A program made the position numbers and the translations under genes. From positions 1 through 36,678 of IMG/VR virus record IMGVR_UViG_3300025536_000186: a stretch of DNA of 36,678 bases. One strand, written 5' to 3'. The notes under the pieces were generated by a model. The model saw nothing but the letters and a program-made list of their open reading frames with translations. It had not been told where the DNA came from and searched no databases. The DNA is from a virus. Positions 6,569 to 19,566 of the stretch are shown here, piece after piece (positions within the stretch are counted from its first letter, which is position 1; each line of letters begins with the position of its first letter).

Positions 6569-7327
6569 ATGACCGACAAGCTCCTTCCCGCCGGACACTA
6601 TGTGATCGCCCTCGCCGCTGTCGGCGGGGCATTCGCCGACGGCGGCTGGGTTTCGCTCCGCCTTGCGCACGCGATGGTTCCTGAAGTCATCCAGCGGGCG
6701 GCAGTGAGTGCAATCGAGACGTTCCTGCCCAAGGACCTGGAGATGCTTCCCGCCGGCGCGTGGTGGCACGTCACCATCACCTACCAGTCGGCCTGGGATT
6801 CGGGCTGCATGCTGGGGGCCCAGCTGCAACTCCCTGACGCGCTGCAGAGCGAACAGTTCCCAGACGCATTGCGCGAATTCATGCCGCGCGCCACCGCGTC
6901 GCATCCTTCGCCATGGCGAATCGTTTCGGCGTGGCACCATCACATGCGCTCGAGGCCGAGCGGCCCGCGCTGCTCAACTGAGGAGGCACAGATGGAACGC
7001 GCCACTTTATCGAATATGTGCCTGCCGCCGCCGGTCGTCGAAGCCATCCGTGACCTGTGCATTGTGATCGCCGAGAACGTCTCCATCCGCGACGGCTACT
7101 TCCGCGCCGGAGCGAGCCGCCTGGCCGCGCGCATCGACGCTGCCATCGCGTCAGGCGCCGACATCAACTTGTCGGGCGACGAGATCGAGCTCGCTGTCGA
7201 CATGGCGGAGGCCATCGTCAAGGCGATCGTTGGCGGCAAGCGGCTGGTCAGCTCTGAAGTCCTGACCCGCATCTGCGTGCGTGTGGTGAATCCGATCACC
7301 GACGCCCTAGGCTATGTCGAGTCATGA
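6569..7327 (+). CDS. Unknown early ORF, probably two genes joined by a frameshift near 6900
   Basis: One frame stays open for 252 codons, starting one base after gam's stop. The first ~110 residues look like a real protein (HYVIALAAVGGAF...WWHVTITYQSAWDSG). From about 6905 this frame becomes Arg/Pro/His/Cys-rich and unlike coding sequence. The frame one base earlier then reads ASFAMANRFGV and ALEAERPALLN and stops at 6979-6981, directly before a perfect Shine-Dalgarno and an ATG at 6992. The simplest reading is an ancestral gene from 6569 to 6981 that suffered a one-base indel near 6900 and now runs into the next gene. A genuine fusion cannot be excluded. Neither part has a recognised function. 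Confidence 0.55.
   Translation: MTDKLLPAGHYVIALAAVGGAFADGGWVSLRLAHAMVPEVIQRAAVSAIETFLPKDLEMLPAGAWWHVTITYQSAWDSGCMLGAQLQLPDALQSEQFPDALREFMPRATASHPSPWRIVSAWHHHMRSRPSGPRCSTEEAQMERATLSNMCLPPPVVEAIRDLCIVIAENVSIRDGYFRAGASRLAARIDAAIASGADINLSGDEIELAVDMAEAIVKAIVGGKRLVSSEVLTRICVRVVNPITDALGYVES
6992..7327 (+). CDS. Probable separate small early protein, unknown function
   Basis: This is the second half of the 252-codon frame, taken from its own ATG because AGGAGG (6981-6986) stands 5 bases before it. The 111-residue product has alternating helices (PPPVVEAIRDLCIVIAENV, then LAARIDAAIASGADINLSG, then ELAVDMAEAIVKAIVGG). It contains no catalytic or metal-binding pattern. Its stop overlaps the next start by ATGA, as is usual in this operon. 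Its role is unknown. Confidence 0.55.
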   Translation: MERATLSNMCLPPPVVEAIRDLCIVIAENVSIRDGYFRAGASRLAARIDAAIASGADINLSGDEIELAVDMAEAIVKAIVGGKRLVSSEVLTRICVRVVNPITDALGYVES

Positions 7328-7674
7328 GCACCGTCGAAGCCCCCGCGGCCGACGCCGCGCCGCCGCCGATCGGGCCCGACCCTTTCGAGACCTTCCCGCT
7401 GCTTGGGTTGCTGTTCGCCTTCGACACGACCTGGCGCGCCTATCGCATCCGCCATCCGCGCAACGAGGACCTGGCCGCACTGCACGAACTCTTTCGGCCG
7501 CTGTCGGCCGAGATCCATCGGCTCGGCATGGTCGACAAGTTCACCGGCCGCCTTTCGTTCAAGGGCGATGCCCGCGAAGTCTTCGATCGCTGCCTCGAGG
7601 TGGCCCGCGGCGCCGGCCTGCAATGGCCGGACATCGTCGAAGCGGTGAACAAGGCCGGGGAGGCCGGCAAATGA
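7324..7674 (+). CDS. Small early protein of unknown function
   Basis: The 116-residue product is linked by ATGA overlaps on both sides. The N-terminus is Ala/Pro-rich and likely disordered. Residues about 25-110 are helical (LLGLLFAFDTTWRAYRIRHP, DLAALHELFRPLSAEIHRLG, AREVFDRCLEVARGAGLQW). The hydrophobic part is too polar overall to be a membrane span. No family is recognised. It precedes gemA directly. Confidence 0.6.
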   Translation: MSTVEAPAADAAPPPIGPDPFETFPLLGLLFAFDTTWRAYRIRHPRNEDLAALHELFRPLSAEIHRLGMVDKFTGRLSFKGDAREVFDRCLEVARGAGLQWPDIVEAVNKAGEAGK

Positions 7675-8399
7675 GCCGGCGTCCCTATCGTAGGCCGCCG
7701 CTCGCACCGATGCCCATGGCGGCGGACGGCGCGCGCAAGAACCTGCTGGCGAAAATCCATATCCAGCAGAAGGAGCTCGCGCTTTCCGACGAGAGCTATC
7801 GCGATGTGCTCTGCCGCATCACCGGCCACCGCTCGGCGGCCCTGTGCGACGACCAGCAGCTCTACGCGGTGCTGAAGGAATTCGATCGGCTCGGCGCCGG
7901 CAAGAAGGCCAGCGCCCGGCCGATCGCCGACTCGCCCATGGCGCGCCGCTGCCGTGCGCTGTGGCTCAACCTCTTCAACCTGGACGAAATCGAGATTGGC
8001 TCCGAGCTCGCGCTTGCCGCCTTCGTCCAGCGACAGACCACGCGCGAGGACATGCGCTTCTGCAACGCCGAGCAGCTCTCCGACGTGATCGAGGCGCTGA
8101 AGGACTGGGGCAAGCGCGTCGGGCTGACCGGCCTGGCGGCCGGCGCCGACAAGCGCGCGCCACGCCGCGCCCTGGTGCGGCTGCAATGGCACCGGCTGCA
8201 CGCAGCGAACTGGGCCAAGGTGGAAGGCGACTCGGGCCTGATGGGCTTCGCCCGGGCATGGCGCGTTGTGCCGCGCGACATGCCGCTCGAGGAGATGGAG
8301 CCGGTCGATCTCGACAACCTGGCAATGAAGCTGGGCGCTCTGGTGCGCAGGCAGCGCCTCGGCCGGCGCCACCAGGCAAACACCGGCGAGGCCGGCTAG
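7671..8399 (+). CDS. gemA: GemA-like (Mu gp16) regulatory protein
   Basis: The start at 7671 overlaps the previous stop by ATGA; the open frame upstream is not used. The 242-residue product carries the GemA/DUF1018 signature near the N-terminus: NLLAKIHIQQKELALSDESY followed by RDVLCRITGHRSAALCDDQQL and VLKEFDRLG. Downstream, a helical region contains two typical 'LW' and 'LNLFNLDEIE' segments and a VIEALKDWGKRVG helix. In Mu, gemA modulates host gene expression and DNA topology-related functions early in the lytic cycle. Its place just before the Mor-like gene is the same as in Mu (16, then 17). Confidence 0.88.
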   Translation: MSRRPYRRPPLAPMPMAADGARKNLLAKIHIQQKELALSDESYRDVLCRITGHRSAALCDDQQLYAVLKEFDRLGAGKKASARPIADSPMARRCRALWLNLFNLDEIEIGSELALAAFVQRQTTREDMRFCNAEQLSDVIEALKDWGKRVGLTGLAAGADKRAPRRALVRLQWHRLHAANWAKVEGDSGLMGFARAWRVVPRDMPLEEMEPVDLDNLAMKLGALVRRQRLGRRHQANTGEAG

Positions 8400-8404
8400 A
8401 CCAG

Positions 8405-8845
8405 ATGGCGACGCCGCGCGTCTTCCGCGATCCCCGCATCGACCGGCTGCCCGGGCAGCTGAAGCCGGTGGCGGAGATCTGCGGCTACGACGGCGTCATG
8501 CGCTTGCTCGAGCACTATGCCGGCCAGGAGGTCTACATCCCGGCGATCGCGCGCAGCCACCGCACCAAGATCGCCAAGTTGTGCGGGCCCGGTGTCGCCC
8601 TCGCTGTCGCCAAAGCCCTGGGCGGGACGCGCAGCGTGCGTATCCCGCTGGCCGAGGGCCTGCGCACCGAGGCCAAGCACCGGGCGATCAACGCCGATCG
8701 GCGGAAGGCCAATGCCGTCGCGCGGGAGCTAGGCATGCACGTCGACTCCGTGCATCGTATCCGCGCCGGCCGGGGCGCCAAGCATCGCGTGCCCAGGGAG
8801 AGCCGGCAGCCGGGGCTGTTCGACGCGCTTTCGAAGCGGTCGTGA
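8405..8845 (+). CDS. mor: Mor/C-family transcription activator
   Basis: The start ATG at 8405 is 5 bases after the gemA stop. At 146 residues it is similar in size to Mu Mor (129) and C (140). The C-terminal half follows the Mor/C plan: a beta strand with R-S-V-R-I-P, a linking helix (LRTEAKHRAINADRRK), then the helix-turn-helix NAVARELGMHVDSVHRIRAG. The N-terminal half (about 1-75) would form the dimerisation helices. In Mu, Mor turns on the middle promoter, and C then turns on the late promoters, by binding inverted repeats next to a weak -35. Only one such protein is present here, so it may do both jobs. It is the best candidate to bind the repeated 16-bp palindrome at 9673 and 18265. Confidence 0.75.
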   Translation: MATPRVFRDPRIDRLPGQLKPVAEICGYDGVMRLLEHYAGQEVYIPAIARSHRTKIAKLCGPGVALAVAKALGGTRSVRIPLAEGLRTEAKHRAINADRRKANAVARELGMHVDSVHRIRAGRGAKHRVPRESRQPGLFDALSKRS

Positions 8846-8863: not shown

Positions 8864-9109
8864 ATGAATTCGAAACTCACCGCCTGGAGAAGCATCGCGA
8901 ACGACCTGCCGGACTGGTCGGATACCGGGCCTGCGGAGCTTCGCTACGGCGACGGGCGGGTGATCTCAGGTAGGCTTCACATCACCGACTTCATCTCCGG
9001 TGACCCCGAGATCCCGTTGTTTGCCTTCACTTCGAGTGCCGGTGAAGACCTCGATATCTTCACGGCCAAGGAGTGGCGGCTGGTGAGAATCGATCAGAGG
9101 ACGAAATGA
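8864..9109 (+). CDS. Small protein of unknown function
   Basis: The 81-residue product has alternating short strands (AELRYGDGRVISGRLHITDF, then IPLFAFTSSAGEDLDIFTAKEW RLV), suggesting a small beta-barrel. No family is recognised. It follows the Mor-like gene after 18 bases, and its stop overlaps the next start (ATGA). Confidence 0.5.
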   Translation: MNSKLTAWRSIANDLPDWSDTGPAELRYGDGRVISGRLHITDFISGDPEIPLFAFTSSAGEDLDIFTAKEWRLVRIDQRTK

Positions 9110-9663
9110 CCGCCATCCGTCTCATTCTGGCCGACAGCGTGGGCACTAGCGTCGACCCAGTCGATCGCAAGGACCGCTGGTACAGACGCAACCTCGCGGC
9201 GGCCATCAAGGAGGCGGCAACGGTGGAGTCGCTGGGCGACACATTCCAGCGGCTGGCGGTTCATCTCCATCCGGCCGACGGTGATCCGATCGACGTCGAG
9301 TTCTGCTTCGAGGATGCACCCGTCGATCCGCTGAAGCTCGACGCGCTCATGCACCGGGCTGGCACGATCGTCGACGGCCTTCGACATTCGGCAGCGCTGC
9401 TCGGCCGCGAGAAGTCCGCCGTCATCGTGCCGATCGTGAGCTTCGCGGCGCGGACCTCCAGCTTGACCCAGGACGAGCAGGAGCGCGCCGAGCAACGCCT
9501 GTTGTGGGCCGCCAGCTGGAAAAGCCTGGGTGAGCATTACCTCGGCCTCTGCTTCGGCGATGGCATGGCCATCTTCCAGTTCGGCGACTATCGCGACGAT
9601 GTGAACGGGCGGCGGGTGCGCGAGCTCGCGTCGACCACGGCTATGGCCGAGGCCTCCGCCTAG
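9106..9663 (+). CDS. Unknown protein at the end of the early operon
   Basis: The start at 9106 is chosen from the ATGA overlap; an upstream start at 9073 would lie inside the previous gene. The 185-residue product is mixed alpha/beta, with an acidic central region and a Trp-rich stretch (LLWAASWKSLGEHYLGLCF). No motif is recognised. It ends just before the first late promoter and so marks the end of the early/middle block. Confidence 0.6.
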   Translation: MTAIRLILADSVGTSVDPVDRKDRWYRRNLAAAIKEAATVESLGDTFQRLAVHLHPADGDPIDVEFCFEDAPVDPLKLDALMHRAGTIVDGLRHSAALLGREKSAVIVPIVSFAARTSSLTQDEQERAEQRLLWAASWKSLGEHYLGLCFGDGMAIFQFGDYRDDVNGRRVRELASTTAMAEASA

Positions 9664-9672
9664 CGCTCTTCG

Positions 9673-9718
9673 CCCGACATATGTCGGGTTGGTTCTGAGG
9701 GCCTCATCTCCCTAGCGT
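9673..9718 (+). promoter_or_regulatory. Late promoter before the lysis module (Plys-like)
   Basis: A perfect 16-bp palindrome, CCCGACATATGTCGGG (9673-9688), abuts TTGGTT (9689-9694), a plausible weak -35. After exactly 18 bases comes TAGCGT (9713-9718) as -10. The same palindrome, TTGGTT and 18-base spacing recur at 18265-18310. Mu places activator-dependent Plys at the same point. The repeat and spacing are seen; activation by the Mor-like protein is inferred. Confidence 0.7.
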
Positions 9719-9742
9719 CGAGCCTCACCTTGCCGAGGCTCG
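9719..9742 (+). promoter_or_regulatory. Inverted repeat over the late start site and RBS
   Basis: CGAGCCTC (9719-9726) and GAGGCTCG (9735-9742) form a perfect 8-bp inverted repeat with an 8-base loop, ending one base before the ATG at 9744. Its 3' arm contains the only Shine-Dalgarno-like GAGG (9735-9738). It may be an operator at the start site, or, if transcription begins early enough, a hairpin that hides the ribosome site. Confidence 0.45.
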
Positions 9743-9743
9743 A

Positions 9744-10109
9744 ATGCAAGCCCGACCGCTAATCCTCATCGTCTGTTTGCTCCTGCTCTGCTTCGGAGCC
9801 GAAATGCTCGGTGGCATGGCGCGCCGCGCTAATTCGCACGGCGCGGCGCATTGGATCGAGACCAACAAGGCTTACGTCGCCGAGAGCGGCAGCCACTGCT
9901 GCGGCGTCGGCGACTGCCGTCGCGAGGGTGCCACCAAGTTCCGCGAGGCGCCCGAGGGCGTCTATGTTGCTGTCGGCGCGGGCGACGAGGTGCTGATGCC
10001 GCGCCGCCTGATCGGCCGTGGTCTCTATCCCTCGATCGACGACGACTGGTGGATCTGCATCCGCGACGGCGTCGTGCGCTGCATCTTTAAACCGACGACC
10101 GGAGGCTGA
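9744..10109 (+). CDS. Secreted or membrane-anchored Cys protein (CCGxxDC motif)
   Basis: The 121-residue protein starts with a signal peptide or signal anchor (PLILIVCLLLLCFGAEMLGG, about residues 5-24). The mature part carries HCCGVGDC (about 51-58) and a further WICI...VRC pair, suggesting disulfides in the periplasm. Short exported proteins with a CC-x3-DC core are common in alphaproteobacteria and their phages, but their biochemical role is not known to me. It is the first gene after the late promoter, so it may act in the envelope during lysis or on superinfection. It lacks the second membrane span expected of a classical holin. Confidence 0.6.
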   Translation: MQARPLILIVCLLLLCFGAEMLGGMARRANSHGAAHWIETNKAYVAESGSHCCGVGDCRREGATKFREAPEGVYVAVGAGDEVLMPRRLIGRGLYPSIDDDWWICIRDGVVRCIFKPTTGG

Positions 10110-10110
10110 C

Positions 10111-10920
10111 ATGGACCCTCGCACTTCGCGCGGCTTCTACAACAACAATCCCGGCAACATCGACCGCGGCAACGAGCTGTGGCAGGGCGAGATCCGCGAC
10201 ACGGGCGATATCCGCCTCAGCGACTTCCAGCGCGGCGAGCTCACCAAGGGCCGCTTCTGCGTGTTCGTCTCGGCCGAGCACGGCATCCGCGCGCTGGCCA
10301 AGAACCTGTTCGCCTACCGTGACCGTCTCAACCAGCGAACGGTGCGGCAGATCATCAACACCTGGGCGCCGCCCGTCGAGAACGACACCGGCGCTTACGT
10401 GGCGGCCGTCGCCAAGCGCGCCGGCGTCGGCGCCGACGCCGAGATCGACATTCGTGACTACAAGACGCTGCACGGCATAGTGGCGGCCATCATCATCCAC
10501 GAGTGCGGCGGCATGCCCTATGCCGGCAACGAGATCGAGGACGGGCTGCGCCTGGCCGGTGTCGTGAAGCCGGTCGGCGTGACCACGTCGAAAACGGCGA
10601 CCAGCCTCACGGTGGCCTCGGGCGCCACGATCGCGGGCGGCGGCGTCGCCGTGATCCAGGATTCGACGCAGCAGCCGTCGGCGGTCCAGGAGACCGTGAC
10701 GGCGGTGCAGGAACCGCTGCGCCAGACGGCCGAAGGCCTGGCGCCGTTCTCCGGAACCTCGCCGGCGATCGCGCAGGCGTTGTTCTGGCTAAAGATCGCA
10801 CTCGCGGTGATCGCCATCGTCGGCATCGCGGTGGCCGCCTGGGAGCGCGTCAAGCGCGCCCGCCGCGACCGGGAGCAGGCCGCGGCGCAGGCCGCCGCCG
10901 GCACGCTGGTGGGGCAATGA
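10111..10920 (+). CDS. Endolysin (P5/lytic transglycosylase type) with C-terminal membrane segment
   Basis: The start at 10111 is preceded by GGAGG at 10101-10105. In this 269-residue protein the N-terminal domain (1-150) has the signature of phage structural lysins: RGFYNNNPGNI (7-17), W24-Q-G, FVSAEHGIRAL (52-62), then INTWAPPVENDTGAY (82-96) and a terminal IIIHECGG with Glu131. A flexible Thr/Ala/Gln-rich linker (about 155-215) follows, then one hydrophobic segment (about 222-243) and a basic tail (WERVKRARRDRE). There is no N-terminal signal. It cleaves peptidoglycan. The C-terminal anchor suggests it is kept at the inner membrane until release or collapse of that membrane. Confidence 0.85.
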   Translation: MDPRTSRGFYNNNPGNIDRGNELWQGEIRDTGDIRLSDFQRGELTKGRFCVFVSAEHGIRALAKNLFAYRDRLNQRTVRQIINTWAPPVENDTGAYVAAVAKRAGVGADAEIDIRDYKTLHGIVAAIIIHECGGMPYAGNEIEDGLRLAGVVKPVGVTTSKTATSLTVASGATIAGGGVAVIQDSTQQPSAVQETVTAVQEPLRQTAEGLAPFSGTSPAIAQALFWLKIALAVIAIVGIAVAAWERVKRARRDREQAAAQAAAGTLVGQ

Positions 10921-11180
10921 TCGGTGCGCTGTTCGCCGCCGGCGTCGCGCGGCTTGCACCGATCCTCACCGCGGCGTGGGGAAAGATCGTCTTCGTGGGC
11001 GGCATCGCGCTCGCGCTGCTCGGTGTCTATGCCGCGATCCGCAAGAGCGGACGCGATGCGGAGCGCGCCGACTCTCTGGCTACGTCCCTCGACACCGCAA
11101 AGGAGATGCAAGATGCGAACGCTGCTGGCCCCCATACTGCTGGCGACGTTGACGGCCGCCTGCAGCAGCACACCTTCTAG
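10917..11180 (+). CDS. Rz-like inner-membrane spanin (i-spanin)
   Basis: The ATG at 10917 overlaps the endolysin stop (ATGA). The 87-residue product has one membrane span (about 22-41, GKIVFVGGIALALLGVYAA) followed by a charged helix (RKSGRDAERADSLATSLDTAKEMQ), the plan of an i-spanin. It is shorter than lambda Rz. Its 3' end overlaps a lipoprotein gene in another frame, the standard Rz/Rz1 arrangement. Together they would fuse inner and outer membranes in the last step of lysis. Assignment rests on topology and context, not on strong sequence identity. Confidence 0.65.
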   Translation: MIGALFAAGVARLAPILTAAWGKIVFVGGIALALLGVYAAIRKSGRDAERADSLATSLDTAKEMQDANAAGPHTAGDVDGRLQQHTF

Positions 11181-11352
11181 CGGAGCGCCGCCGGTGTGCC
11201 CCCAGCTCGTCGAGTACTCCGCCGCCGTCCAAGACCAGGCGCTGGCCGAGCTGCAGGCGTTGCCCGGCGACGGCATCGTGCGCGGCCGCCTCATGCCGGA
11301 CTACGGCCGCATGCGCGACGAGGTTCGGGCCTGCAAGAAGGCGGCACGTTGA
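11113..11352 (+). CDS. Rz1-like outer-membrane lipoprotein spanin (o-spanin)
   Basis: The ATG at 11113 lies inside the i-spanin gene, in another frame, with AGGAG (11101-11105) upstream. The 79-residue product has a lipoprotein signal with lipobox TAAC and lipidated Cys17. Pro/Ser residues follow (SSTPSSGAPPVC), then a helical part (LVEYSAAVQDQALAELQAL). The overlap with the i-spanin is 68 bases. O-spanins pair with i-spanins through their periplasmic ends. Frame, lipobox and position agree well with the class. Confidence 0.75.
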   Translation: MRTLLAPILLATLTAACSSTPSSGAPPVCPQLVEYSAAVQDQALAELQALPGDGIVRGRLMPDYGRMRDEVRACKKAAR

Positions 11353-11477
11353 TGTGGACGGCGGCGACAGCGGCCTTCGGCCTCGCGGCAGCCTTCGGCG
11401 TGGCGGCATGCTGGTGGGAACTGGTCGGCATTGCGTCCGGCCTCGCCTTCATGTCCGCCGCGGGCGCGTTTTGGTGA
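11352..11477 (+). CDS. Small hydrophobic membrane protein (41 residues)
   Basis: The ATG at 11352 overlaps the o-spanin stop (ATGA-type). Nearly the whole chain is hydrophobic: two short spans (about 4-20 and 23-41) with Trp-Trp-Glu at the turn. It is too short to be assigned to a holin family by sequence, but a two-span hairpin of this size in a lysis cassette could be a pinholin-like or antiholin protein. It could equally be a short membrane anchor. The overlap and composition support that it is translated. Confidence 0.45.
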   Translation: MWTAATAAFGLAAAFGVAACWWELVGIASGLAFMSAAGAFW

Positions 11478-11487
11478 GGGCCGGCTG

Positions 11488-11904
11488 ATGTGGCAGGAAT
11501 TCCGCGACTGGATCGTTCCCGGCATCGCCGTCGGCACTCTGCTCTGGCAGGCCTTCACGGCTCTACGGCGAAACGTCGTCAAGCCCGAGGATCTCGCCAA
11601 GTTCGCCACCACGAACGACATGATGGCCGTCGAGAAGGTGCTGCATGACCAGGTCGATGAATGCGATAGGCGAATCACCGAAGCAGATCACAAGATCGAT
11701 CTCCTGACGAAGGACGTCGGCGCGCTGCCCAACTACAGCGACGTCAATCGCCTCCGCGAGGCGATCAGCGAGCTCACCGCCAACGTCAGCAAACTCTCGG
11801 CCGATATGCACGGCCTCGACAGCACGGTCGACCGCATGGGGAGTTCGGTCGACCGCGTTGAACAACATCTCCTCAATCTCAAGTTGGCCAAGGTCGTTGA
11901 ATGA
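11488..11904 (+). CDS. DUF2730-type phage membrane protein (Mu gp25-like)
   Basis: The start at 11488 is preceded by GAGGG (11476-11480). The 138-residue product has one N-terminal membrane span (about 8-26, WIVPGIAVGTLLWQAFTAL) and then a long coiled coil to the C-terminus, with repeated heptad leucines/valines (RLREAISELTANVSKLSADMHGL splits over two helices). Mu-like phages carry a DUF2730 protein of this layout between the lysis genes and gp26/gp27. Its function is unknown. The position and topology match. Confidence 0.7.
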   Translation: MWQEFRDWIVPGIAVGTLLWQAFTALRRNVVKPEDLAKFATTNDMMAVEKVLHDQVDECDRRITEADHKIDLLTKDVGALPNYSDVNRLREAISELTANVSKLSADMHGLDSTVDRMGSSVDRVEQHLLNLKLAKVVE

Positions 11905-12206
11905 GCCTGGATTATGCCGACACGCTGCGCCGCGCGCGCCGGCGCGTCATCCTCGAGATCCTGGCTGACACGCCTGACGGCCAGTCGGGAGAGCTCTTCA
12001 TCGAGCCGGTGCTGAACAGCCGCCGCATCCGCAGCGACCGCGACCAGGTGCGCACGGAGCTGAGTTGGCTGGCGGACCAGGGACTCGTCGCCACCGAGGA
12101 GATCGCTGGCGACATGTACGCCACAATCCTGGCCGGCGGTCGGGCGATCGCCGATGCCAAGCGCGTGCACCCCGATATCGAGAAGCGTCCGGACAGGCGG
12201 CGCTGA
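11901..12206 (+). CDS. Mu gp26-like small winged-helix protein
   Basis: The 101-residue product overlaps DUF2730 by ATGA. It reads as a compact winged helix: RRVILEILADTPDGQSGE, a helix with RIRSDRDQVRTELSWLADQGLV, then a beta hairpin (ATEEIAGDMYATILAGG) and a helix. This pattern is that of the VpaChn25_0724/gp26 family found just before the small terminase in Mu-like phages. Binding to DNA is plausible from the fold, but the role is not established. Confidence 0.7.
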   Translation: MSLDYADTLRRARRRVILEILADTPDGQSGELFIEPVLNSRRIRSDRDQVRTELSWLADQGLVATEEIAGDMYATILAGGRAIADAKRVHPDIEKRPDRRR

Positions 12207-12208
12207 CC

Positions 12209-12817
12209 GTGGACAGCGACACTCCCGAAGACGGCAAGATCGTTGAGCTGCGTCCTGGCAGCAAAAAGCGGAAGCGCCTCAGCACGATCGACGCCCTGCC
12301 GGCCGACGTGCGGGCCGAGCTCAACATGGCGATCGAGGAAGGCCGGCTCAGCGTCGACGAACTTTGGGAGCTGGTGCGCGACAGGGGCGGCGACGTCAGC
12401 CGTTCGGCCGTCGGCCGGCACAAGGTGCGCCAGGAGCAGCACGAGGCCGTCTTCATGAAGTCGGTGAAGATGGCGGAGTTCTTCGCGCGCGAGCGCGCCA
12501 AGGACCCGACGGGCCCGGCGTCGATCGTCAACAACGAGATCCTGAAGTCGCTCGCGTTCCAGCGGATGATGGCCATGTCGCCCAAGGACGCCGAGAAGGT
12601 GAGTCCCAAGGATCTGTCGCTGCTCGCCGGCGCCGTGCGGGCCGCTGCGTCGACCGACAAGATCACGCTCGAGCGCGAGATGATGATCGCCAAGCGCGCC
12701 GTGGAGAAGGAACGGCAGCGCGCGGCGAGCGAAGTCGAGAAGGTCGCCAAGCAGCGCGGCCTCACCAAGGAAGCCGTCGCCGAGATCCGGCAGAAGATCC
12801 TGGGCATCGCCGGATGA
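12209..12817 (+). CDS. Terminase small subunit (DUF3486, Mu gp27-like)
   Basis: A GTG at 12209 just after the gp26-like stop is chosen as start; the frame is open upstream, but that part overlaps gp26 for its full length. The 202-residue product has the DUF3486 outline: KRLSTIDALPADVRAELNMAI, SVDELWELVRDRGGDVSRSAVGRHK (an HTH-like part, about 20-72), then helices with a coiled C-terminal part (LEREMMIAKRAVEKERQRAA). It recognises phage DNA and stimulates the large subunit. It overlaps the large terminase start. Confidence 0.85.
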   Translation: MDSDTPEDGKIVELRPGSKKRKRLSTIDALPADVRAELNMAIEEGRLSVDELWELVRDRGGDVSRSAVGRHKVRQEQHEAVFMKSVKMAEFFARERAKDPTGPASIVNNEILKSLAFQRMMAMSPKDAEKVSPKDLSLLAGAVRAAASTDKITLEREMMIAKRAVEKERQRAASEVEKVAKQRGLTKEAVAEIRQKILGIAG

Positions 12818-14469
12818 GCACGGCAGCGACCATCGCGCCCGATCGCGCGCCGCCGGGCAACATCCCCGCGGTGCTGTCCTACGACGCGCCAGGCGACCTT
12901 GGCCTGTTGCGCGCCAGCCAGCGCAAGTGGGTAGCCGATCAATCCGAGGTGAAGATCGCCGAGAAGGGTCGCCGCACCGGCTTCACCTTCGGCGAGGCGG
13001 CCGACGACGTCATGATCGCCGCCGCTTCCCGCGAGGCCGGCGGCGACAACGTCTACTACATCGGCACCACGCTCGACATGGCGCGCGAATACATCGACGC
13101 CTGCGGCCGCTGGGCGATCGGCCTGAACTACGCTGCCGGCGAAATCGGCGAGGTTTTGATCGAGGACGTCGACGACCACGGCAACTCGCGCAACATCAAG
13201 TCGTTCCGCATCGATTTCCCGTCGGGCTTCTTCATCCTGGCGCTCTCGTCGCGGCCACGCTCGCTGCGCGGCCGCCAGGGCGTTGTGGTGATCGACGAGG
13301 CCGCTTTCCAGGACGATCTGGCTGGCCTGATCAAGGCGGCGATCGCGCTGATCATCCTGGGCAGCAAGGTCCGCATCATCTCGACGCACAACAGCGTCGA
13401 CAACTACTTCAATGAATTGATCGAAGAGTGCCGGGCCGAGCGCATTCCCTATTCGCTGCACCGGTGCACCTTCGAGGATGCTGTCCGCGAAGGTCTCTAT
13501 CGGTCGCGGTGCCAGGCCAAGGGCGAGGCGTGGACCGAAGACGGCGAGAAGGAATTCGTCACCAAGGTCCGCGCCTTCTACCGGCCGAACGACGCCGAGG
13601 AGCTCGACTGCATCCCGGCGCAGTCGGGCGGCACCTATCTGCCGCTGTCGCTGATCCTGCCCTGCGTCGATAAGTCGATCCCGGTCGTGCGCTGGGACTT
13701 CGCGGACAATTTCCTCGATCTGCCGCTGCACATCCGCGACGCCGAGGTCGAAGCCAGGTGCCGCGACGAGCTGCAGCCGCTGCTCGACGCCATGGACAAG
13801 GAGGCGCCCAGCTATTTCGGCGGCGACTTCGGCCGATCGGCCAACCGCACGACCTACTGGCCGGCGCAGCGCCTGAAGGACACGCGGCTGAAGACGCCGT
13901 TCCTGCTCGAGCTCTACAACTGCCCCTTCGCCCAGCACCGCACGATCTTCAAGTGGGTGACCTTGCGCCTGCCAAGCTTCCGGCACGGCAAGCTCGATGC
14001 GCGGGGCAACGGCGCCGAGCTCGCCGAGTTCATGCGCGGCGAGTTCGGTGCCAGCCGAATCGAGGAAGTGAAGGCGACGCTGGAATGGTACCGCCTCAAC
14101 TGGCCGCTGGCGAAGGCCAGGCTCGAGGACAAGAGCGCCGACGTTCCCGCCGATCGCGACGTCCACGACGATCTGCGCGCCGTGAAGGTCGTAAAGGGCG
14201 TGCCGGTGATTCCGGAGCAGAACCAGGGCAGCGACCAGAGTGGCGGTAGGGGCAAGGGCAAACGCCACGGCGACGCCGCCATCGCCTTCCTGAACCTGAC
14301 GGCCGCCGCGCGCGCCGAGACGTGGGAGGCCGGCTACGACGCCATCAACACCCACGGCCGCGACCGCTACATCGGCACGAGCGAGCGCGGCCTCGATTTC
14401 CTGATGCGCGACGAAGACGATGGCTTCGGGGATCTCCCGAGCGGGCTTCGCCGCGGCCGATATCGCTGA
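12814..14469 (+). CDS. Terminase large subunit (Mu gp28-like)
   Basis: The start at 12814 overlaps the small subunit by ATGA. The 551-residue length equals the usual size. The N-terminal ATPase has a non-classical Walker A region around EKGRRTGFTFGEA (50-62), as in Mu-type enzymes, and Walker B VVVIDEAA (157-164). The C-terminal RNase H-like nuclease has acidic residues Asp338 (GGDFGRS), Asp395 (LDARGNG) and Asp487 (HGDAAIAF). It cuts integrated phage DNA and pumps it into proheads by headful packaging. No damage is visible. Confidence 0.93.
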   Translation: MSTAATIAPDRAPPGNIPAVLSYDAPGDLGLLRASQRKWVADQSEVKIAEKGRRTGFTFGEAADDVMIAAASREAGGDNVYYIGTTLDMAREYIDACGRWAIGLNYAAGEIGEVLIEDVDDHGNSRNIKSFRIDFPSGFFILALSSRPRSLRGRQGVVVIDEAAFQDDLAGLIKAAIALIILGSKVRIISTHNSVDNYFNELIEECRAERIPYSLHRCTFEDAVREGLYRSRCQAKGEAWTEDGEKEFVTKVRAFYRPNDAEELDCIPAQSGGTYLPLSLILPCVDKSIPVVRWDFADNFLDLPLHIRDAEVEARCRDELQPLLDAMDKEAPSYFGGDFGRSANRTTYWPAQRLKDTRLKTPFLLELYNCPFAQHRTIFKWVTLRLPSFRHGKLDARGNGAELAEFMRGEFGASRIEEVKATLEWYRLNWPLAKARLEDKSADVPADRDVHDDLRAVKVVKGVPVIPEQNQGSDQSGGRGKGKRHGDAAIAFLNLTAAARAETWEAGYDAINTHGRDRYIGTSERGLDFLMRDEDDGFGDLPSGLRRGRYR

Positions 14470-14477
14470 GGAATCCA

Positions 14478-16082
14478 ATGGCTCGACCTTCAACCATCGT
14501 CGACAGCTCCGGGCGTCCCTTCATGGTCGACGATCTCGACAAGGAGATCGGCGGTCCGACCGTGAGCGGCGTGCGCCGGTATCCCGCGATGGAGTTGATG
14601 CGGGGCATGACGCCCCAGCGCCTGGCGTCGATCCTGGCCGAGGTGAAGGCCGGCACGCCGATGGCATACTTCGAGCTCGCCGAGGAAATGGAGGAGCGCG
14701 ACCCGCACTACGCGTCGGTGCTCGGCACCCGCAAGCGCGCCGTCTCGCAGCTCACCGTCAAGGTTGAGGCCGCCTCGACCGCCGCGAAGGACGTCGAGAT
14801 TGCCAACGCCTTCCGCAAGTGGACCCAGCGCAAGCGCCTGCAGGCCGAGCTGTTCGACCTGCTCGATGCGGTCGGCAAGGGCATCAGCATCTCAGAGATC
14901 GTCTGGGACAAGAGCCGCACTCCCTGGATGCCGGCGCGGCTGTGCTTCAGGCCGATGAGCTGGTTCCGCCCCGACCTGGTCGATCGCGAGACCTTCCGGC
15001 TGCGGGTCGATGGCAATCCGCGCGGCGACGACCTGCAGCTCGGCAAGTGGATCGTCCACCGCCATCCGGCGAAGACCGGCCTCAGCGTGCGCAGCGGCAT
15101 CGCCTACATCGCCGCCTGGGCCGTGATGTTCACCACCTTCACCGTGGCGGACTGGATGGCCTTCGCCGACACCTACGGCCAGCCGTTCCGCCTCGGCAAG
15201 TATCCGCCGGGCACCGACGGGCCGGCGCGCCGCGTCCTCTACGATGCGGTCACGATGATGGGGGCGGACGCGGCGGCCGCCATCCCGGACACGATGACGA
15301 TCGAGTTCGTCCAGGCCGCCAAGACCGACGGCGCCATGTTCGGCGGGCTCGCCAGCTACTTCAACCGCCTGAAGTCGAAGCTCGTGCTCGGCCAGGAGAC
15401 GACGACCGAGGCGATCTCCGGCGGCCATGCGGTCAGCAAGGAGCAGAACGAAGTGCGCGGCGACATCCGCGACGCCGATGCCGTGCTGGTGTGCGACACG
15501 CTGCAGGAGCAGCTCGTCGGGCCGTGGACCGCCATCAACTACGGACCCAAGGTCGACCCGCCGCTGCTCTCGATCGACTATGAAGGCAACGAGGACGTCA
15601 AGGCGACGCTCGACGGCGCCTTCGGGCTCGCCGATCGCGGCGTGCGCATCAGCGCCAAGCAGCTGCGCGACAAGCTCAACCTGGTGGAGCCGGAAGCGGC
15701 CGAGGAGATCGTGGGCGCCATGGCGCCGGCGGCGCCGTCGACGGAGCCAGCGCCTGGCGCCAAGCCGAAGCCTCGGTCGAAGTTGGTGGCGAAGAATGCG
15801 ACACGCCGCGAGATCTCGACGGCCCTCAATGCCGCGTCGGCCGCCAAGCGCCAGCAGGCGGTCCAGGACGAGATCCTGGCGGCACTCGAGGCGGCCGGTC
15901 AGCCGCTCATCGACGGCTGGCTGGATCGCATCGAGGCGGCCATGAACGCGGCCGAGACGATGGAAGATTTCGCCAGCCGCATGATGGAGCTCTATCCCGA
16001 GCTCAAGGTCGACGACCTCGCCACCGTGATGGGCCAGGCGCTGGCGCTGGCCAACGTCAGCGCACGGGATCTCGATGCTTGA
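14478..16082 (+). CDS. Portal protein (DUF935, Mu gp29-like)
   Basis: The start at 14478 has GAGGAA (14468-14473) before it. The 534-residue protein has the DUF935 layout: LASILAEVKAGTPMAYFELAEEMEERDPHY near the N-terminus (split over helix and turn), VLGTRKRAV, GISISEIVWD, a central HRHPAKTGLSVRSGI segment and WMAFADTYGQPFRLGKYP. A helical C-terminal part follows. It forms the dodecameric ring through which DNA enters and to which the tail attaches. It ends inside the next start with an 8-base overlap. Confidence 0.93.
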   Translation: MARPSTIVDSSGRPFMVDDLDKEIGGPTVSGVRRYPAMELMRGMTPQRLASILAEVKAGTPMAYFELAEEMEERDPHYASVLGTRKRAVSQLTVKVEAASTAAKDVEIANAFRKWTQRKRLQAELFDLLDAVGKGISISEIVWDKSRTPWMPARLCFRPMSWFRPDLVDRETFRLRVDGNPRGDDLQLGKWIVHRHPAKTGLSVRSGIAYIAAWAVMFTTFTVADWMAFADTYGQPFRLGKYPPGTDGPARRVLYDAVTMMGADAAAAIPDTMTIEFVQAAKTDGAMFGGLASYFNRLKSKLVLGQETTTEAISGGHAVSKEQNEVRGDIRDADAVLVCDTLQEQLVGPWTAINYGPKVDPPLLSIDYEGNEDVKATLDGAFGLADRGVRISAKQLRDKLNLVEPEAAEEIVGAMAPAAPSTEPAPGAKPKPRSKLVAKNATRREISTALNAASAAKRQQAVQDEILAALEAAGQPLIDGWLDRIEAAMNAAETMEDFASRMMELYPELKVDDLATVMGQALALANVSARDLDA

Positions 16083-16425
16083 TCTCCGCCGGCAGATCCT
16101 GAGCGCCCTGCGGCAGTCGATCGAAGGCGACGAGCCGATCGCCACCTTGCGTGAACGTTTGTCACCACTCCTGGCCAGGCTGTTGGAGCCCGAGCGCACC
16201 CGGCGAGGGCTGACCGATGTGGAGCGCGATCTCCTCGAGACCTTGCACGATCGGCTGGCCATCGCTCGCGACCGGGTGAGCTTCGCGCTGAAAGAGAACA
16301 CCGTCGACCATGCCATGCCGGCCCTGCAGGACGTGCGGTCGATCTACCAGGGCGCCGCATTCGTCGAGGCGCTGATGCTGGAGCCGATCGGGCCGGGAAC
16401 AGTGCGGTCGGGGCCACCAGCTTGA
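16075..16425 (+). CDS. Unknown protein between portal and F
   Basis: This 116-residue ORF overlaps the portal stop by 8 bases and the next start by 4. It is helical and charged (LRRQILSALRQSIEGD, LSPLLARLLEPERTRRGLTDVERDLLETLHDRLAIARD). No family is recognised. Its packing in the head operon supports it as a gene. A role in head assembly is possible but not shown. Confidence 0.6.
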   Translation: MLDLRRQILSALRQSIEGDEPIATLRERLSPLLARLLEPERTRRGLTDVERDLLETLHDRLAIARDRVSFALKENTVDHAMPALQDVRSIYQGAAFVEALMLEPIGPGTVRSGPPA

Positions 16426-16646
16426 AGATCCGCTTTCACTCCAGCGAGGCGCCCCGGCTTGGACAGTACTTCAAGACCGACAAAGGGCGTAACGCCTACC
16501 ACATCGTCGGGGTAGTGCAGGGCCGCACCGGCGTGGGCGGCGTCATCGTCTTCGCCTGCGAAGTGGAGAAGATGGTAGCCGCGCGCCTGCCGGCCGACGC
16601 TGACATCATTCCGTTCCGGTGGTTCGCCCGTGGCCGCAAGACCTGA
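16422..16646 (+). CDS. Small unknown protein in the head operon
   Basis: A TTG at 16422 overlaps the previous stop (TTGA) and is taken as start. The 74-residue product begins MKIRFHSSEAP when read from the start codon and has alternating strands (AYHIVGVVQGRTGVGGVIVFACEVEKM). It ends 17 bases inside the F-like gene. No motif is known to me. The strand pattern suggests a small beta domain. Confidence 0.5.
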   Translation: MKIRFHSSEAPRLGQYFKTDKGRNAYHIVGVVQGRTGVGGVIVFACEVEKMVAARLPADADIIPFRWFARGRKT

Positions 16647-17880
16647 GATCACTGTCGGCGGCGTGCCGTTCGAGGAGGCTGCGCGCTTCTTCCGTGACAA
16701 GGTCCGCCTGCCGACGAAGCAGTGGACCGATCTCAAGGAGGGAATGCACGCCCGCGCCTTCGTGGTCGCCGGCGCCTCCAAGGACGAGCTGCTCAAGGAT
16801 CTGCAGGCCTCGATCCAGCGCGCGATCGACGATGGCACCGGGCTGGCGCAGTTCCGCAAGGACTTCAGACAGATCGTGGCCAAGCACGGCTGGTCGTACA
16901 CCGGCGACAGCTCGCGCAAGGGCCGCGCCTGGCGCACCAAGGTGATGTTCGAGACCAACCTCTCGGCGGCCCGCGCCGCCGGCCGCTGGGAGCAGATCCA
17001 GCGCGTGAAGCGCACCAGGCCGTTCCTGCGTTACGTGGCTATCCTCGACACGCATGTGCGGCCTGATCATCGGCGCTGGCACGGCACGGTGCTGCCGGTC
17101 GACGATGAATGGTGGCAGACGCACTATCCGCCGAACGGCTGGAATTGCCGCTGCACCGTCATGAGCCTGTCGCGGCGGATGATGGCCGACTTCGGCTACA
17201 AGGAATCGGCATCGCCGCCGCAGTTCGATCCGGTGCGCCGCAAGGACCCTTTCGGCGACGGCACCATCGCGCTCGATCGCGGCATCGACCCCGGCTTCAA
17301 CTACAACGTGGGCGAGGCCCATGTCGGCCTCGAGCGGGCGATACCCGAGCGCTGGGGCAAGACACAGTCGGAATGGAAGCCCATCGAGGGCACCGCCTAT
17401 CGTGCGCTCACGCCGGCCGACTATGGAGACGCGGCGCCGCTTGCCCCGCGGCCGGCGCCGCGCCTGGCCGAGGCCTCCACCGATCGCGAGCAGGCAGTCG
17501 CCGCCATCCGGCGCGAGCTCGGCGCCGATCGCGCGACGCTCACGACGCCCGACGGCGCGCCGATCGCCGTCGATGCGGAGATCCTGGGCAGCCACATCCA
17601 GGCCCGGCGCACGGTGTGGCTGCCGGTGCTGCGCGACCTGATCGAGAAGCCCGACGAGGTGTGGCTGCTGTTCGAGCGGAACGAGCGCACGGGCCAGGTG
17701 GCGCTGCGGCGCCGGCATCTTGCCCTTTACGAAACGGCAAACCGCGACCGGCCGATGCTGCTGGTGTTCCAGGCGGTGCGGGCAGTGTTCGAGGCCTGGA
17801 CGTTCGTGCCGGTCGACCGGGCGGCGTACCTGGAGCGCCAGCGCCTGGGCCTGCGGCTCTGGCCTCCGCGCGTCTTGTAG
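16630..17880 (+). CDS. F: Mu F-like head morphogenesis protein with C-terminal PBECR-type nuclease domain
   Basis: The GTG start at 16630 overlaps the previous gene by 17 bases. In this 416-residue protein the F-type (SPP1 gp7-like) domain (about 40-180) contains FETNLSAARAAGRW (107-120), LDTHVRPDHRRWHG (139-152) and PPNGWNCRC (167-175), all family signatures. After a linker (about 262-290), residues about 300-410 form a separate domain: TTPDGAPIAVDAEIL, SHIQARRTVWLPVLRDLIEKP, VWLLFERNERTGQVALRRRHL and VFEAWTFVP. This matches in outline the phage Barnase-EndoU-ColicinE5/D-RelE-like (PBECR) nuclease module found fused to Mu F proteins. The F part acts in prohead assembly. The nuclease part may be packaged or ejected; that is inference. 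Confidence 0.88.
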   Translation: MAARPEITVGGVPFEEAARFFRDKVRLPTKQWTDLKEGMHARAFVVAGASKDELLKDLQASIQRAIDDGTGLAQFRKDFRQIVAKHGWSYTGDSSRKGRAWRTKVMFETNLSAARAAGRWEQIQRVKRTRPFLRYVAILDTHVRPDHRRWHGTVLPVDDEWWQTHYPPNGWNCRCTVMSLSRRMMADFGYKESASPPQFDPVRRKDPFGDGTIALDRGIDPGFNYNVGEAHVGLERAIPERWGKTQSEWKPIEGTAYRALTPADYGDAAPLAPRPAPRLAEASTDREQAVAAIRRELGADRATLTTPDGAPIAVDAEILGSHIQARRTVWLPVLRDLIEKPDEVWLLFERNERTGQVALRRRHLALYETANRDRPMLLVFQAVRAVFEAWTFVPVDRAAYLERQRLGLRLWPPRVL

Positions 17881-18264
17881 GCGCCGCGCGCTCACCTAGC
17901 CCTGAAAAGGGACGGGCCCGGAAATCACCCGGGCCCTTACCCGACGAGGGGATAAGCCGTGATTGGCAACCCTCGCCTTCGCTGAGCCGAATATAGGCTC
18001 GTGGGCCCCGATTCGGAAGCCCGCGAAAATCTGGCCGCCACGGCCGGCAGGCCGTCCCGGGACGCCCAGACCCCCGCGCTCGACGCCCGACCCGGCGCTT
18101 ACGGCAATTATTCCGGCTTAAACGGCCTTCCAACCCGAGGCGAGGACCCGTCTGACGGCCCGCGCGCCGGGAGCGGCGATTCCTCGTGGGCTCGGCGGGT
18201 GAGTCTCGGCGGCGATTTTCAGGCCGCGACACCGCCGATCGGCGAGGGCCTTGGCGCGGCTTCA
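17881..18264 (+). other. Long intergenic region with successive hairpins, no convincing gene
   Basis: This is the only gene-free stretch over 300 bases. Its first 100 bases hold CCCT-GAAA-AGGG (17900-17911), a GGGCCCGG/CCGGGCCC hairpin (17914-17936), a two-part stem with CGAGGG/CCCTCG outside (17945-17975) and GCC/GGC inside, and GAGCC/GGCTC (17984-18000). A TCGGCGG/CCGCCGA pair lies at 18206-18238. A frame open from a GTG at 18001 runs into the protease gene but has no ribosome site and poor protein character. A structured RNA, a terminator or a leader are all possible. Confidence 0.4.
17914..17936 (+). terminator. GC-rich hairpin, possible terminator after F
   Basis: GGGCCCGG (17914-17921) and CCGGGCCC (17929-17936) pair perfectly over a 7-base loop, 34 bases after the F stop. 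Only TT follows the stem, so an intrinsic terminator would be weak. It stands between two operons, just ahead of the second late promoter, which favours a terminator. Confidence 0.35.
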
Positions 18265-18310
18265 CCCGACATATGTCGGGTTGGTTGCGATTTTTGGTGC
18301 CCCGTAGGTT
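18265..18310 (+). promoter_or_regulatory. Late promoter before the protease/scaffold gene (PI-like)
   Basis: The second copy of the 16-bp palindrome (18265-18280) abuts TTGGTT (18281-18286). An 18-base spacer and TAGGTT (18305-18310) follow. Spacing is identical to the copy at 9673. In Mu, PI lies between G and I, the equivalent place. Transcription would begin near 18316-18318, almost at the ATG at 18319. Confidence 0.7.
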
Positions 18311-18318
18311 CGCTGACA

Positions 18319-19566
18319 ATGCGATCCGAAAGCAACTTGATTCCAGCAAAGCGCGTCGCCCGGGCCCCCAGCACCAGGTTCATGGTGTTGGGGGCCGGTG
18401 TAGCCATCGCGCTCAACCGTGCCGAGGATGGCCTGCCGGCCGGTGCCAAGATCGGCGTCTGCTACGCGCTCCTGGGCGAGACGCTGGCCACGGAGCTCGA
18501 GCTGATCCCGGCCGGCCATTTCGGCGGGCGCGACGGGCGATCCTGGAACAACGACCAGCCCGACCAGGTCGTCGCCCTCTCGCAGGCGATCCAGATCCCG
18601 GCCGGCATCTGCATCGACGAGGACCACGCGCTGGAGTTCTCGGCCAACGAGAAGATCGGCGGCAGCGCGCCGGCCTACGGCTGGATCAAATCCCTCGAGA
18701 TCCGCGAGGGTGCCATCTGGGGCAAGGTCGAATGGACGCCGCTCGGCGCCCAGGCCGTGAAGGACAGGATCTACTGCGGCCTCTCGCCGGTCTTTGCCTT
18801 CGACGAGGACTCGGGTCGCGTGCTGGCGCTGCTCTCCGCCGGCCTCACCAACAAGCCCAACCTGACGCTCAAGGCCTTCAACAGCCGCGAGCGTCATGCC
18901 GTGCAACAGGAGAAAGTCGAAATGAAGAAGATTGCGGAGCTGCTCGGCCTCAAGCCCGATGCCAGCGAAAGCGATATCCAGACCGCGCTCAACGCGGTGC
19001 TGGCGGTGATCGGCGCCCTGGCGGCGGCGATCGGTGTCGATGCGAAGGCGGCCATCGCGCTCAACGCGGAGTCGATGAACGCGGCCCTCACCAAGAAGTT
19101 CGGTGCTCCGAACGCCGTCCTGGTGGCGCTCTGCACTAAGGCCGAGGTCAAGACTGATGCGGCCGCCGACGCGATCATCGCGGGCCTCGAGAAGGTCCTG
19201 ATCGATCCCGCCAAGTTCGTGCCGATGGACGCACACATGGCGCTGAAGGAGGAACTCACCGCGCTCAACGCCGGCAAGCCGGCCGAGCTCGTTAAGCAGG
19301 CGCTGAAGGACGGCCGCCTGCTGCCGCGGCAGGAGAGCTGGGCGCTCAACTATGCCCAGCGCGATCTCGAGGGCTTCAAAACCTACATCGGCGTCGCGCC
19401 GGAGCAGCTCGGCGACGTCCGGAAGCCGACGGACAAGGCGCTCAACGCTTCCGATTCGAAGGCCATCGCCACGGCCGCGCAAGCCTACATCGCCGAGCAG
19501 TCGAAGCTCGGCATCACCGTGAGCGCCACCGCCGCGGTGAACCACGTCACCAAGCAGGGAGCCTGA
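18319..19566 (+). CDS. I: Mu gpI-type prohead protease/scaffold
   Basis: The 415-residue reading starts at the ATG at 18319; an ATG at 18382 is an alternative and fits better the short N-terminus typical of the family. Residues 60-80 read ELIPAGHFGGRDGRSWNND, matching the gpI core, followed by IDEDHALE (His103), GWIKSLEIREG, YCGLSPVF (Ser156) and LTNKPNLTLKAF. The N-terminal half is the protease. The C-terminal half, after residue 201, is helical and Ala-rich and serves as scaffold. The predicted late promoter puts the transcript start within a few bases of the ATG at 18319, so that start would be leaderless. Confidence 0.88.
   Translation: MRSESNLIPAKRVARAPSTRFMVLGAGVAIALNRAEDGLPAGAKIGVCYALLGETLATELELIPAGHFGGRDGRSWNNDQPDQVVALSQAIQIPAGICIDEDHALEFSANEKIGGSAPAYGWIKSLEIREGAIWGKVEWTPLGAQAVKDRIYCGLSPVFAFDEDSGRVLALLSAGLTNKPNLTLKAFNSRERHAVQQEKVEMKKIAELLGLKPDASESDIQTALNAVLAVIGALAAAIGVDAKAAIALNAESMNAALTKKFGAPNAVLVALCTKAEVKTDAAADAIIAGLEKVLIDPAKFVPMDAHMALKEELTALNAGKPAELVKQALKDGRLLPRQESWALNYAQRDLEGFKTYIGVAPEQLGDVRKPTDKALNASDSKAIATAAQAYIAEQSKLGITVSATAAVNHVTKQGA
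18922..19566 (+). CDS. Z: Nested scaffold protein (Mu gpZ-like), internal start in gpI
   Basis: An in-frame ATG at 18922 (residue 202 of gpI) is preceded by AGGAGA (18908-18913) at 8 bases, the best ribosome site in the region. The 214-residue product starts MKKIAELLGLKPDASESD and is helical and Ala-rich, as expected of scaffold. Mu makes gpZ from an internal start in I. The start motif is seen here; production of a separate protein is inferred by analogy. Confidence 0.6.
   Translation: MKKIAELLGLKPDASESDIQTALNAVLAVIGALAAAIGVDAKAAIALNAESMNAALTKKFGAPNAVLVALCTKAEVKTDAAADAIIAGLEKVLIDPAKFVPMDAHMALKEELTALNAGKPAELVKQALKDGRLLPRQESWALNYAQRDLEGFKTYIGVAPEQLGDVRKPTDKALNASDSKAIATAAQAYIAEQSKLGITVSATAAVNHVTKQGA

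Follow-up and report, generated by a model that had tools for sequence, protein, structure and literature searches.

Which function could be served by a perfect palindrome that recurs in a Mu-like phage, ahead of both its lysis genes and its head maturation genes? The question was raised by a 36,678-bp viral contig of IMG/VR (hereafter the window, i.e., this whole stretch of DNA), which codes for a Mu-like phage and harbors the 16-bp palindrome CCCGACATATGTCGGG before the lysis genes (site 1) and before gene I (site 2). Sites and placement were computed as follows.

9673-9688, no strand: proposed operator 1 (CCCGACATATGTCGGG), dyad centre at 9680/9681
18265-18280, no strand: proposed operator 2 (CCCGACATATGTCGGG), dyad centre at 18272/18273, with arms of 9 bp reaching over 18264-18281

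With a probability of roughly 0.86, the palindromes are the sites of a dimer of a single Mor/C-family activator that drives the lysis and I operons, gene I being expressed from a leaderless messenger RNA (mRNA).

The repeat itself was unambiguous. No third copy was found in the window with up to three mismatches allowed, a tolerance at which dinucleotide shuffles gave 0.12 matches to CCCGACATATGTCGGG on average and two matches in 1 of 100 shuffles, and CCCGACATATGTCGGG was the sole palindrome to recur in the window when arms of 7 bp or longer were required. TTGGTT lay directly 3' of each copy (9689-9694 and 18281-18286) and was followed 18 nt later by TAGCGT (9713-9718) at site 1 and by TAGGTT (18305-18310) at site 2. 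The bases common to both sites were CTTCnCCCGACATATGTCGGGTTGGTT, while the remaining flanks were unlike, and therefore the repeat does not come from duplication of a block. The original prediction, made by reading these letters, was exact in giving two places only, in the spacing of the flanking words, and in taking the repeat for more than a simple duplication. No relatives were retrieved from the viral collection by exact 22-mer or 16-mer matching. The 16-mer occurred in six IMG/VR viral stretches, beside TTGGTT in none of them and at no obviously homologous place, so that the matches look like chance and the literal CCCGACATATGTCGGG looks private to the phage of the window.

Relatives were obtained by aligning the portal protein, as no match was obtained when Mor or I was searched by itself against viral contigs, or when Mor was run in tblastn against phages. 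Portal alignment yielded 160 loci, half of them from genomes and half (80 each) from viral contigs; over all sequences, 115 loci had a Mor homologue and, in the order expected, an I gene. Each pair of regions downstream of mor and upstream of I was scored for a common palindrome, and regions taken from two different phages served as null. The real mean over the 115 loci was 28.2, against 24.8 for the null (standard deviation 2.1); with the I site fixed in its distance from the in-frame ATG, the means over 105 loci were 31.1 for real pairs and 26.1 for the null (p=2e-20). The test is conservative, because null pairs include unrelated phages with the same type of operator. The window pair ranked among the best-scoring ones, and the palindromes were specific to each phage, e.g., CCCGCAAGCGCTTGCGGG in locus L153, CGGCCCCGCGCGGGGCCG in L073, TGCCCGCCnTGGCGGGCA in L024 and CCCTGACAnnTGTCAGGG in L033. 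In Ochrobactrum phage POA1180, CCTGACAnTGTCAGG was present three times and no more, once ahead of each of the genes for the endolysin, protease I and tail sheath, and its half-site CCTGACA is one base apart from CCCGACA of the window. Judged from these sequences, Mu-like phages, mostly alphaproteobacterial, have a palindrome, some 16 bp long and particular to the phage, after mor and again before I. Random placement in relatives, named by the original prediction as the outcome that would speak against it, was not seen: there, too, the palindromes occupied these two places and kept the -10 geometry. The new operator class that it announced does differ from the Mu C site, but is one spelling in a series that changes from phage to phage. 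Such pairs in most relatives, at homologous places, and the restriction of the likeness within the window to the palindrome and a few flanking bases leave next to no room for a chance repeat or a functionless remnant of a small duplication, a reading favored by the conservation of the literal sequence in no other phage.

The palindromes of the window and of its relatives were placed at a fixed distance from a -10-like element, from which the transcript starts of the window were predicted.

9713..9718, + strand: lysis-promoter -10 hexamer TAGCGT, at +32..+37 from the dyad centre, offset as in relatives
9725 (plus or minus 2), + strand: predicted start of the lysis-operon transcript, placed from the -10 position
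18305..18310, + strand: I-promoter -10 hexamer TAGGTT, at +32..+37 from the dyad centre
18317 (plus or minus 2), + strand: predicted start of the I-operon transcript, 0-4 nt from the ATG, placed from the -10 position

The fixed geometry was computed on sites chosen without regard to the -10 element and aligned on the dyad centre. A was found at +33 in 54/62 I sites and 47/62 lysis sites, and T at +37 in 38/62 and 41/62, respectively, i.e., at the second and sixth bases of a -10 hexamer spanning +32 to +37. TAGCGT and TAGGTT of the window lie exactly there, the -10 starting 32.5 bp from the centre. T at +9 was also recurrent (52/62 and 49/62 sites), G at +10 with T at +12/+13 being weaker, so part of TTGGTT is a shared flank and not a -35 element. 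As a -35 box, TTGGTT was rejected, these bases being the only ones of it that recur; a classical sigma-70 promoter was rejected as well, none being listed by the promoter scan at either site on the + strand. By analogy with Mor at Mu Pm, the palindrome itself would fill the -35 region. Relative to the predicted starts, the layout matched that of Mor/C-dependent promoters, with a dyad centred near -43.5 in place of the -35, a -10, and no -35 box. The dyad-to-start geometry appears to be the same as in Mu to about 1 bp, the exact offset hanging on the predicted start sites. The claim of two late promoters like Plys and PI of Mu thus gains from relatives, in which placement and -10 geometry point to the same pair.

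The candidate binder is encoded at the place expected for the Mor/C family, at the end of the early region and directly downstream of GemA (7314-8399).

8405..8845, + strand: Mor/C-family transcription activator, 146 aa, proposed operator binder (profile matches)
8741..8770, + strand: predicted recognition helix codons, residues 113-122 (VDSVHRIRAG), from a structure model and a covariation peak

Its residues 13-139 matched the PHROG 836 late transcriptional activator (E=6.7e-17). The Pfam Mor family (PF08765) gave 23.2 bits, just below the cut-off of 24.9 (a longer open reading frame, ORF, was scanned), and hmmsearch with the Mor alignment gave 7.7e-40, the query itself being part of that alignment. 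Identity was 44% to Mor of locus L097, and 21% and 19% to Mor and C of Mu, about equally weak. The AlphaFold2 (AF2) model displayed a helix-turn-helix (HTH) made of helices 102-109 and 113-122, with a mean pLDDT (predicted local distance difference test) of 97 over residues 101-110 and 95 over 111-120. In Foldseek, the Mor model had Mu C and Mor as weak matches (9l0x, probability 0.63; 1rr7, probability 0.35; E about 1), none of them significant.

For 72 phages, the spelling of the operator was set against the Mor protein. Distances between C-terminal parts of Mor followed distances between operators (Spearman 0.67, or 0.615 with divergence of the I protein removed), while I-protein divergence followed the operator at 0.10 only once Mor was removed. 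With a sliding window of 10 residues, the correlation was highest over residues 113-122 (0.674, or 0.496 once the other residues of Mor were taken out as well); these residues form the second and last HTH helix of the AF2 model, made afterwards. In a partial Mantel test of residues 111-120 against the operator, with I and the remainder of Mor as controls, the value of 0.475 was reached in 0/1999 permutations. Among Mor proteins less than 40% identical elsewhere, operator identity was 0.77 when helices were at least 60% alike and 0.32 when they were less than 30% alike. Operators with a TGTC core were paired with similar helices (MHVDSVHRI in the window, VHERTVYRV in L050, VTQRTVHRH in L085, MHERSAYRA in POA1180); across phages, CTTGCGG went with TDVTVRKYL, GGCGGGC with TETGVDKLF, and TGTCnGG with helices such as HERTVYR. 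Sequences and model together support that operator spelling tracks the Mor recognition helix, and that the operator belongs, as originally proposed, to the 8405-8845 product.

This covariation also bears on who else might bind. Spacerless perfect palindromes are typical of repressor and host operators, and the left end of the contig, the expected place of a repressor gene, may be missing from the record; the palindromes could then be operators of a repressor or a host regulator over both late promoters, with Mor acting elsewhere. Such a reading was judged improbable, as the operator spelling tracks the Mor helix, a site in the -35 place with a weak -10 fits an activator, and operators differ within one host genus (Mesorhizobium, loci L064, L074 and L087), against a host regulator.

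Slightly less probable again is a role in RNA, as hairpins that terminate or process transcripts where operons end, with the late promoters at other places. CCCGAC-AUAU-GUCGGG folds strongly, other operators lie 7-20 nt past mor, and site 1 is found about 10 nt past the stop codon of the second of two ORFs that follow mor in the window.

8864..9109, + strand: ORF without family match, between mor and operator 1
9106..9663, + strand: ORF without family match, between mor and operator 1

However, a U-tract is absent after the palindromes, neither site was listed in the terminator scan or matched in Rfam, and hairpins would leave unexplained both the -10 at fixed distance and the covariation with a DNA-binding helix.

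If the palindromes are activator sites, a dimer of the 8405-8845 product would sit on the 16-bp palindrome about 44 bp upstream of the start, replacing the -35 element, and would help the host RNA polymerase to open the promoter at either -10 hexamer, TAGCGT or TAGGTT. Two operons, for lysis (from about 9725) and, with gene I first, for the head (from about 18317), would then be turned on by a single early protein, and the palindrome of each phage would change along with its own Mor recognition helix. Binding, the dimer and activation are what we infer from the covariation computed above and from the Mu precedent.

Several observations weigh against an activator acting at these sites. No clear pair was found in roughly a third of the loci, and the closest relative, L097 (portal 67% identical), displayed only imperfect dyads at both places (score 27, p=0.38). 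Operator 1 is typically 7-90 nt past mor in relatives, about 1.3 kb past it in L059, and 835 bp from it in the window, unlike most relatives. The -10 hexamers of the window are weak and the promoter scan was empty at both sites, which would also be expected of an activator-dependent promoter. Finally, shared ancestry may make Mantel tests liberal even with the controls used, and their significance is therefore not pressed, the location of the peak being the stronger point.

The circuit appeared simpler than that of Mu. One Mor/C match per genome was obtained in the window and in nearly all relatives, where Mu gives two, a count made on the + or coding strand only, the window record being possibly incomplete. 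On the + strand, the two activators of the three-stage cascade of Mu, Mor and C, were thus represented by one. From sequence comparison, a single Mor/C protein appears to replace both, middle and late control being merged, and the simplest reading would run from the early region to the Mor homologue and on to the late operons, with no middle stage. The earlier claim of the same circuit as in Mu was supported for the lysis and I operons, but not for the activators, one homologue being found instead of two. As the operator directly follows mor in most relatives, the ORFs within 8864-9663 would be read with the early genes. The lysis operon of the window begins as follows.

9744..10109, + strand: first late gene after operator 1, 121 aa, hydrophobic N-terminus; its ATG is at +63 from the dyad centre, inside the range of relatives
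10111..10920, + strand: endolysin-like gene of the lysis operon (PHROG 873 endolysin, E=1.3e-54)

Third operator copies in relatives were at background level except in POA1180, L152 and L170. An extra operator preceded a tape-measure-like gene in L152 and L170, with the -10-like words TAGCGT and TAGCCT. Positions of third copies before tape-measure-like or tail-sheath genes were 20169 in L152, 20201 in L170 and 19463 in L009.

The start codon of gene I lay close to its predicted promoter.

18319..19566, + strand: I gene, head maturation protease/scaffold (Pfam PF10123, 4.8e-54; PHROG 328, 1.6e-65)

Gene I had an ATG or GTG in frame at +40..+50 from the dyad centre in 59/64 phages. The ATG was concentrated at +43..+48, and in a tally by six bases, 52/62 fell into one bin with the neighboring bins nearly empty; sites in both counts were chosen without using the start codon. 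A Shine-Dalgarno-like word preceded 3/56 I genes, compared with 30/53 first lysis genes. In the window, the I ATG (18319) is at +46, 38 nt from the end of site 2. The N-terminus xxESNLIPA is common to the window and L097 from the ATG, with synonymous changes in the ESNLIPA codons, and its conservation directly after the L097 ATG supports the start at 18319. Since the -10 ends at +37, the transcript would be expected to start at about +44, on or beside the ATG. The sequences thus predict a leaderless I mRNA, with a 5' end at the ATG or no more than about 4 nt from it and translation without a leader; these transcript ends and this mode of translation we infer from the computed start-codon position lacking a Shine-Dalgarno word.

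In Pseudomonas phage MP22 (L177), GTTGAA was found both after mor and before I, and 46 nt further on an ATG preceded by GGCGGC. By eye, the ATG is equally distant behind the shared word on both sides, with no clear operator established in MP22. This layout hints at short-leader or leaderless starts beyond alphaproteobacteria too.

The window as a whole displayed a Mu-like gene set, with MuA and MuB homologues, GemA, the Mor-like protein, endolysin, terminase and portal, along with an F-like head protein, the I protease, scaffold and the major head protein. The F-like minor head protein (16630-17880) carried a C-terminal PBECR2 nuclease domain (Barnase/EndoU/ColicinE5/RelE-like, E=3e-17). Past its gene, in the gap before the I promoter, a strong GC hairpin was found at 17914-17936 (GGGCCCGG...CCGGGCCC), which could separate the upstream operon from I. 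The noncoding block GGCGCTTACGGCAATTATTC (18094-18132) was identical in L097 and followed by TTAAACGG in both, about 175 bp upstream of the I operator in the window and 127 bp upstream in L097. The strong gyrase site of Mu (Mu 17879) occupies the corresponding place, by which analogy the block may be its equivalent.

The proposed mechanism is a variant of Mor/C control in Mu. The papers searched, most subscription papers being outside that search, appear to describe neither the operator series and its match with the helix nor a merged circuit or a leaderless gene I. A broader generalization is held tentatively, at slightly less than even odds: that mostly alphaproteobacterial Mu-like phages share a one-activator switch with co-diversifying Mor proteins and operators, insulated regulons, and a leaderless head-protease operon set against a lysis operon with mostly normal leaders. 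Insulation from co-resident prophages and differential translation are speculations on what this would bring; if true, head and lysis expression could each react in its own way to the condition of host ribosomes. What looked like a private motif of one metagenomic phage would become a family-wide rule. About 70 natural helix/operator pairs make DNA recognition by Mor/C, previously worked out for Mu only, readable and testable, late promoters of related prophages become findable from sequence alone, and a conserved leaderless capsid-protease gene is a directly testable prediction.

Among known systems, the closest is Mor at Pm of Mu (PMC4287176, PMC4390567; PDB 1RR7, 9L0Y), where the -35 element is replaced by a 16-bp dyad with its centre at -43.5, to which Mor binds as a dimer (PMC4390567). 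The Mor-family activator and the 16-bp dyad for a -35 are alike, with centres 43.5 bp upstream of the start in Mu and about 44 bp upstream of the predicted start in the window. The Mu dyad, however, is made of two 5-bp arms and a 6-bp spacer, whereas the window has a full palindrome of another sequence, and Mu Mor drives a middle operon making C, whereas the homologue of the window appears to drive the late operons directly. Mu C recognizes dyads of a related kind at Plys, PI, PP and Pmom (PMC4287176), and its targets (PMC4461284; PDB 9L0X) resemble those described here in covering the lysis, I and, in some relatives, tail operons; its operator differs from that of the window, where no separate C was found on the + strand. 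The paper search found no article for the 2025 cryo-electron microscopy structures of Mu C and Mor. The annotated I start of Mu follows the Shine-Dalgarno-like AGCAGGAC, unlike in the window and most relatives. POA1180 (PMC5492332) shares a Mor homologue with a similar helix and has CCTGACAnTGTCAGG before its lysis, I and tail-sheath genes, three sites corresponding to Plys, PI and PP of Mu; it differs from the window by this number of sites, a 1-bp central spacer and one half-site base. The word 'promoter' is absent from that paper, which describes no promoters. Among alphaproteobacteria, leaderless mRNAs abound in Caulobacter, with 375, and in Sinorhizobium meliloti, with 171 quoted (PMC4117421), and resemble the predicted I message in having the start codon at the 5' end; those are host genes, whereas here the gene is a phage head protease and the arrangement is conserved across many phages.

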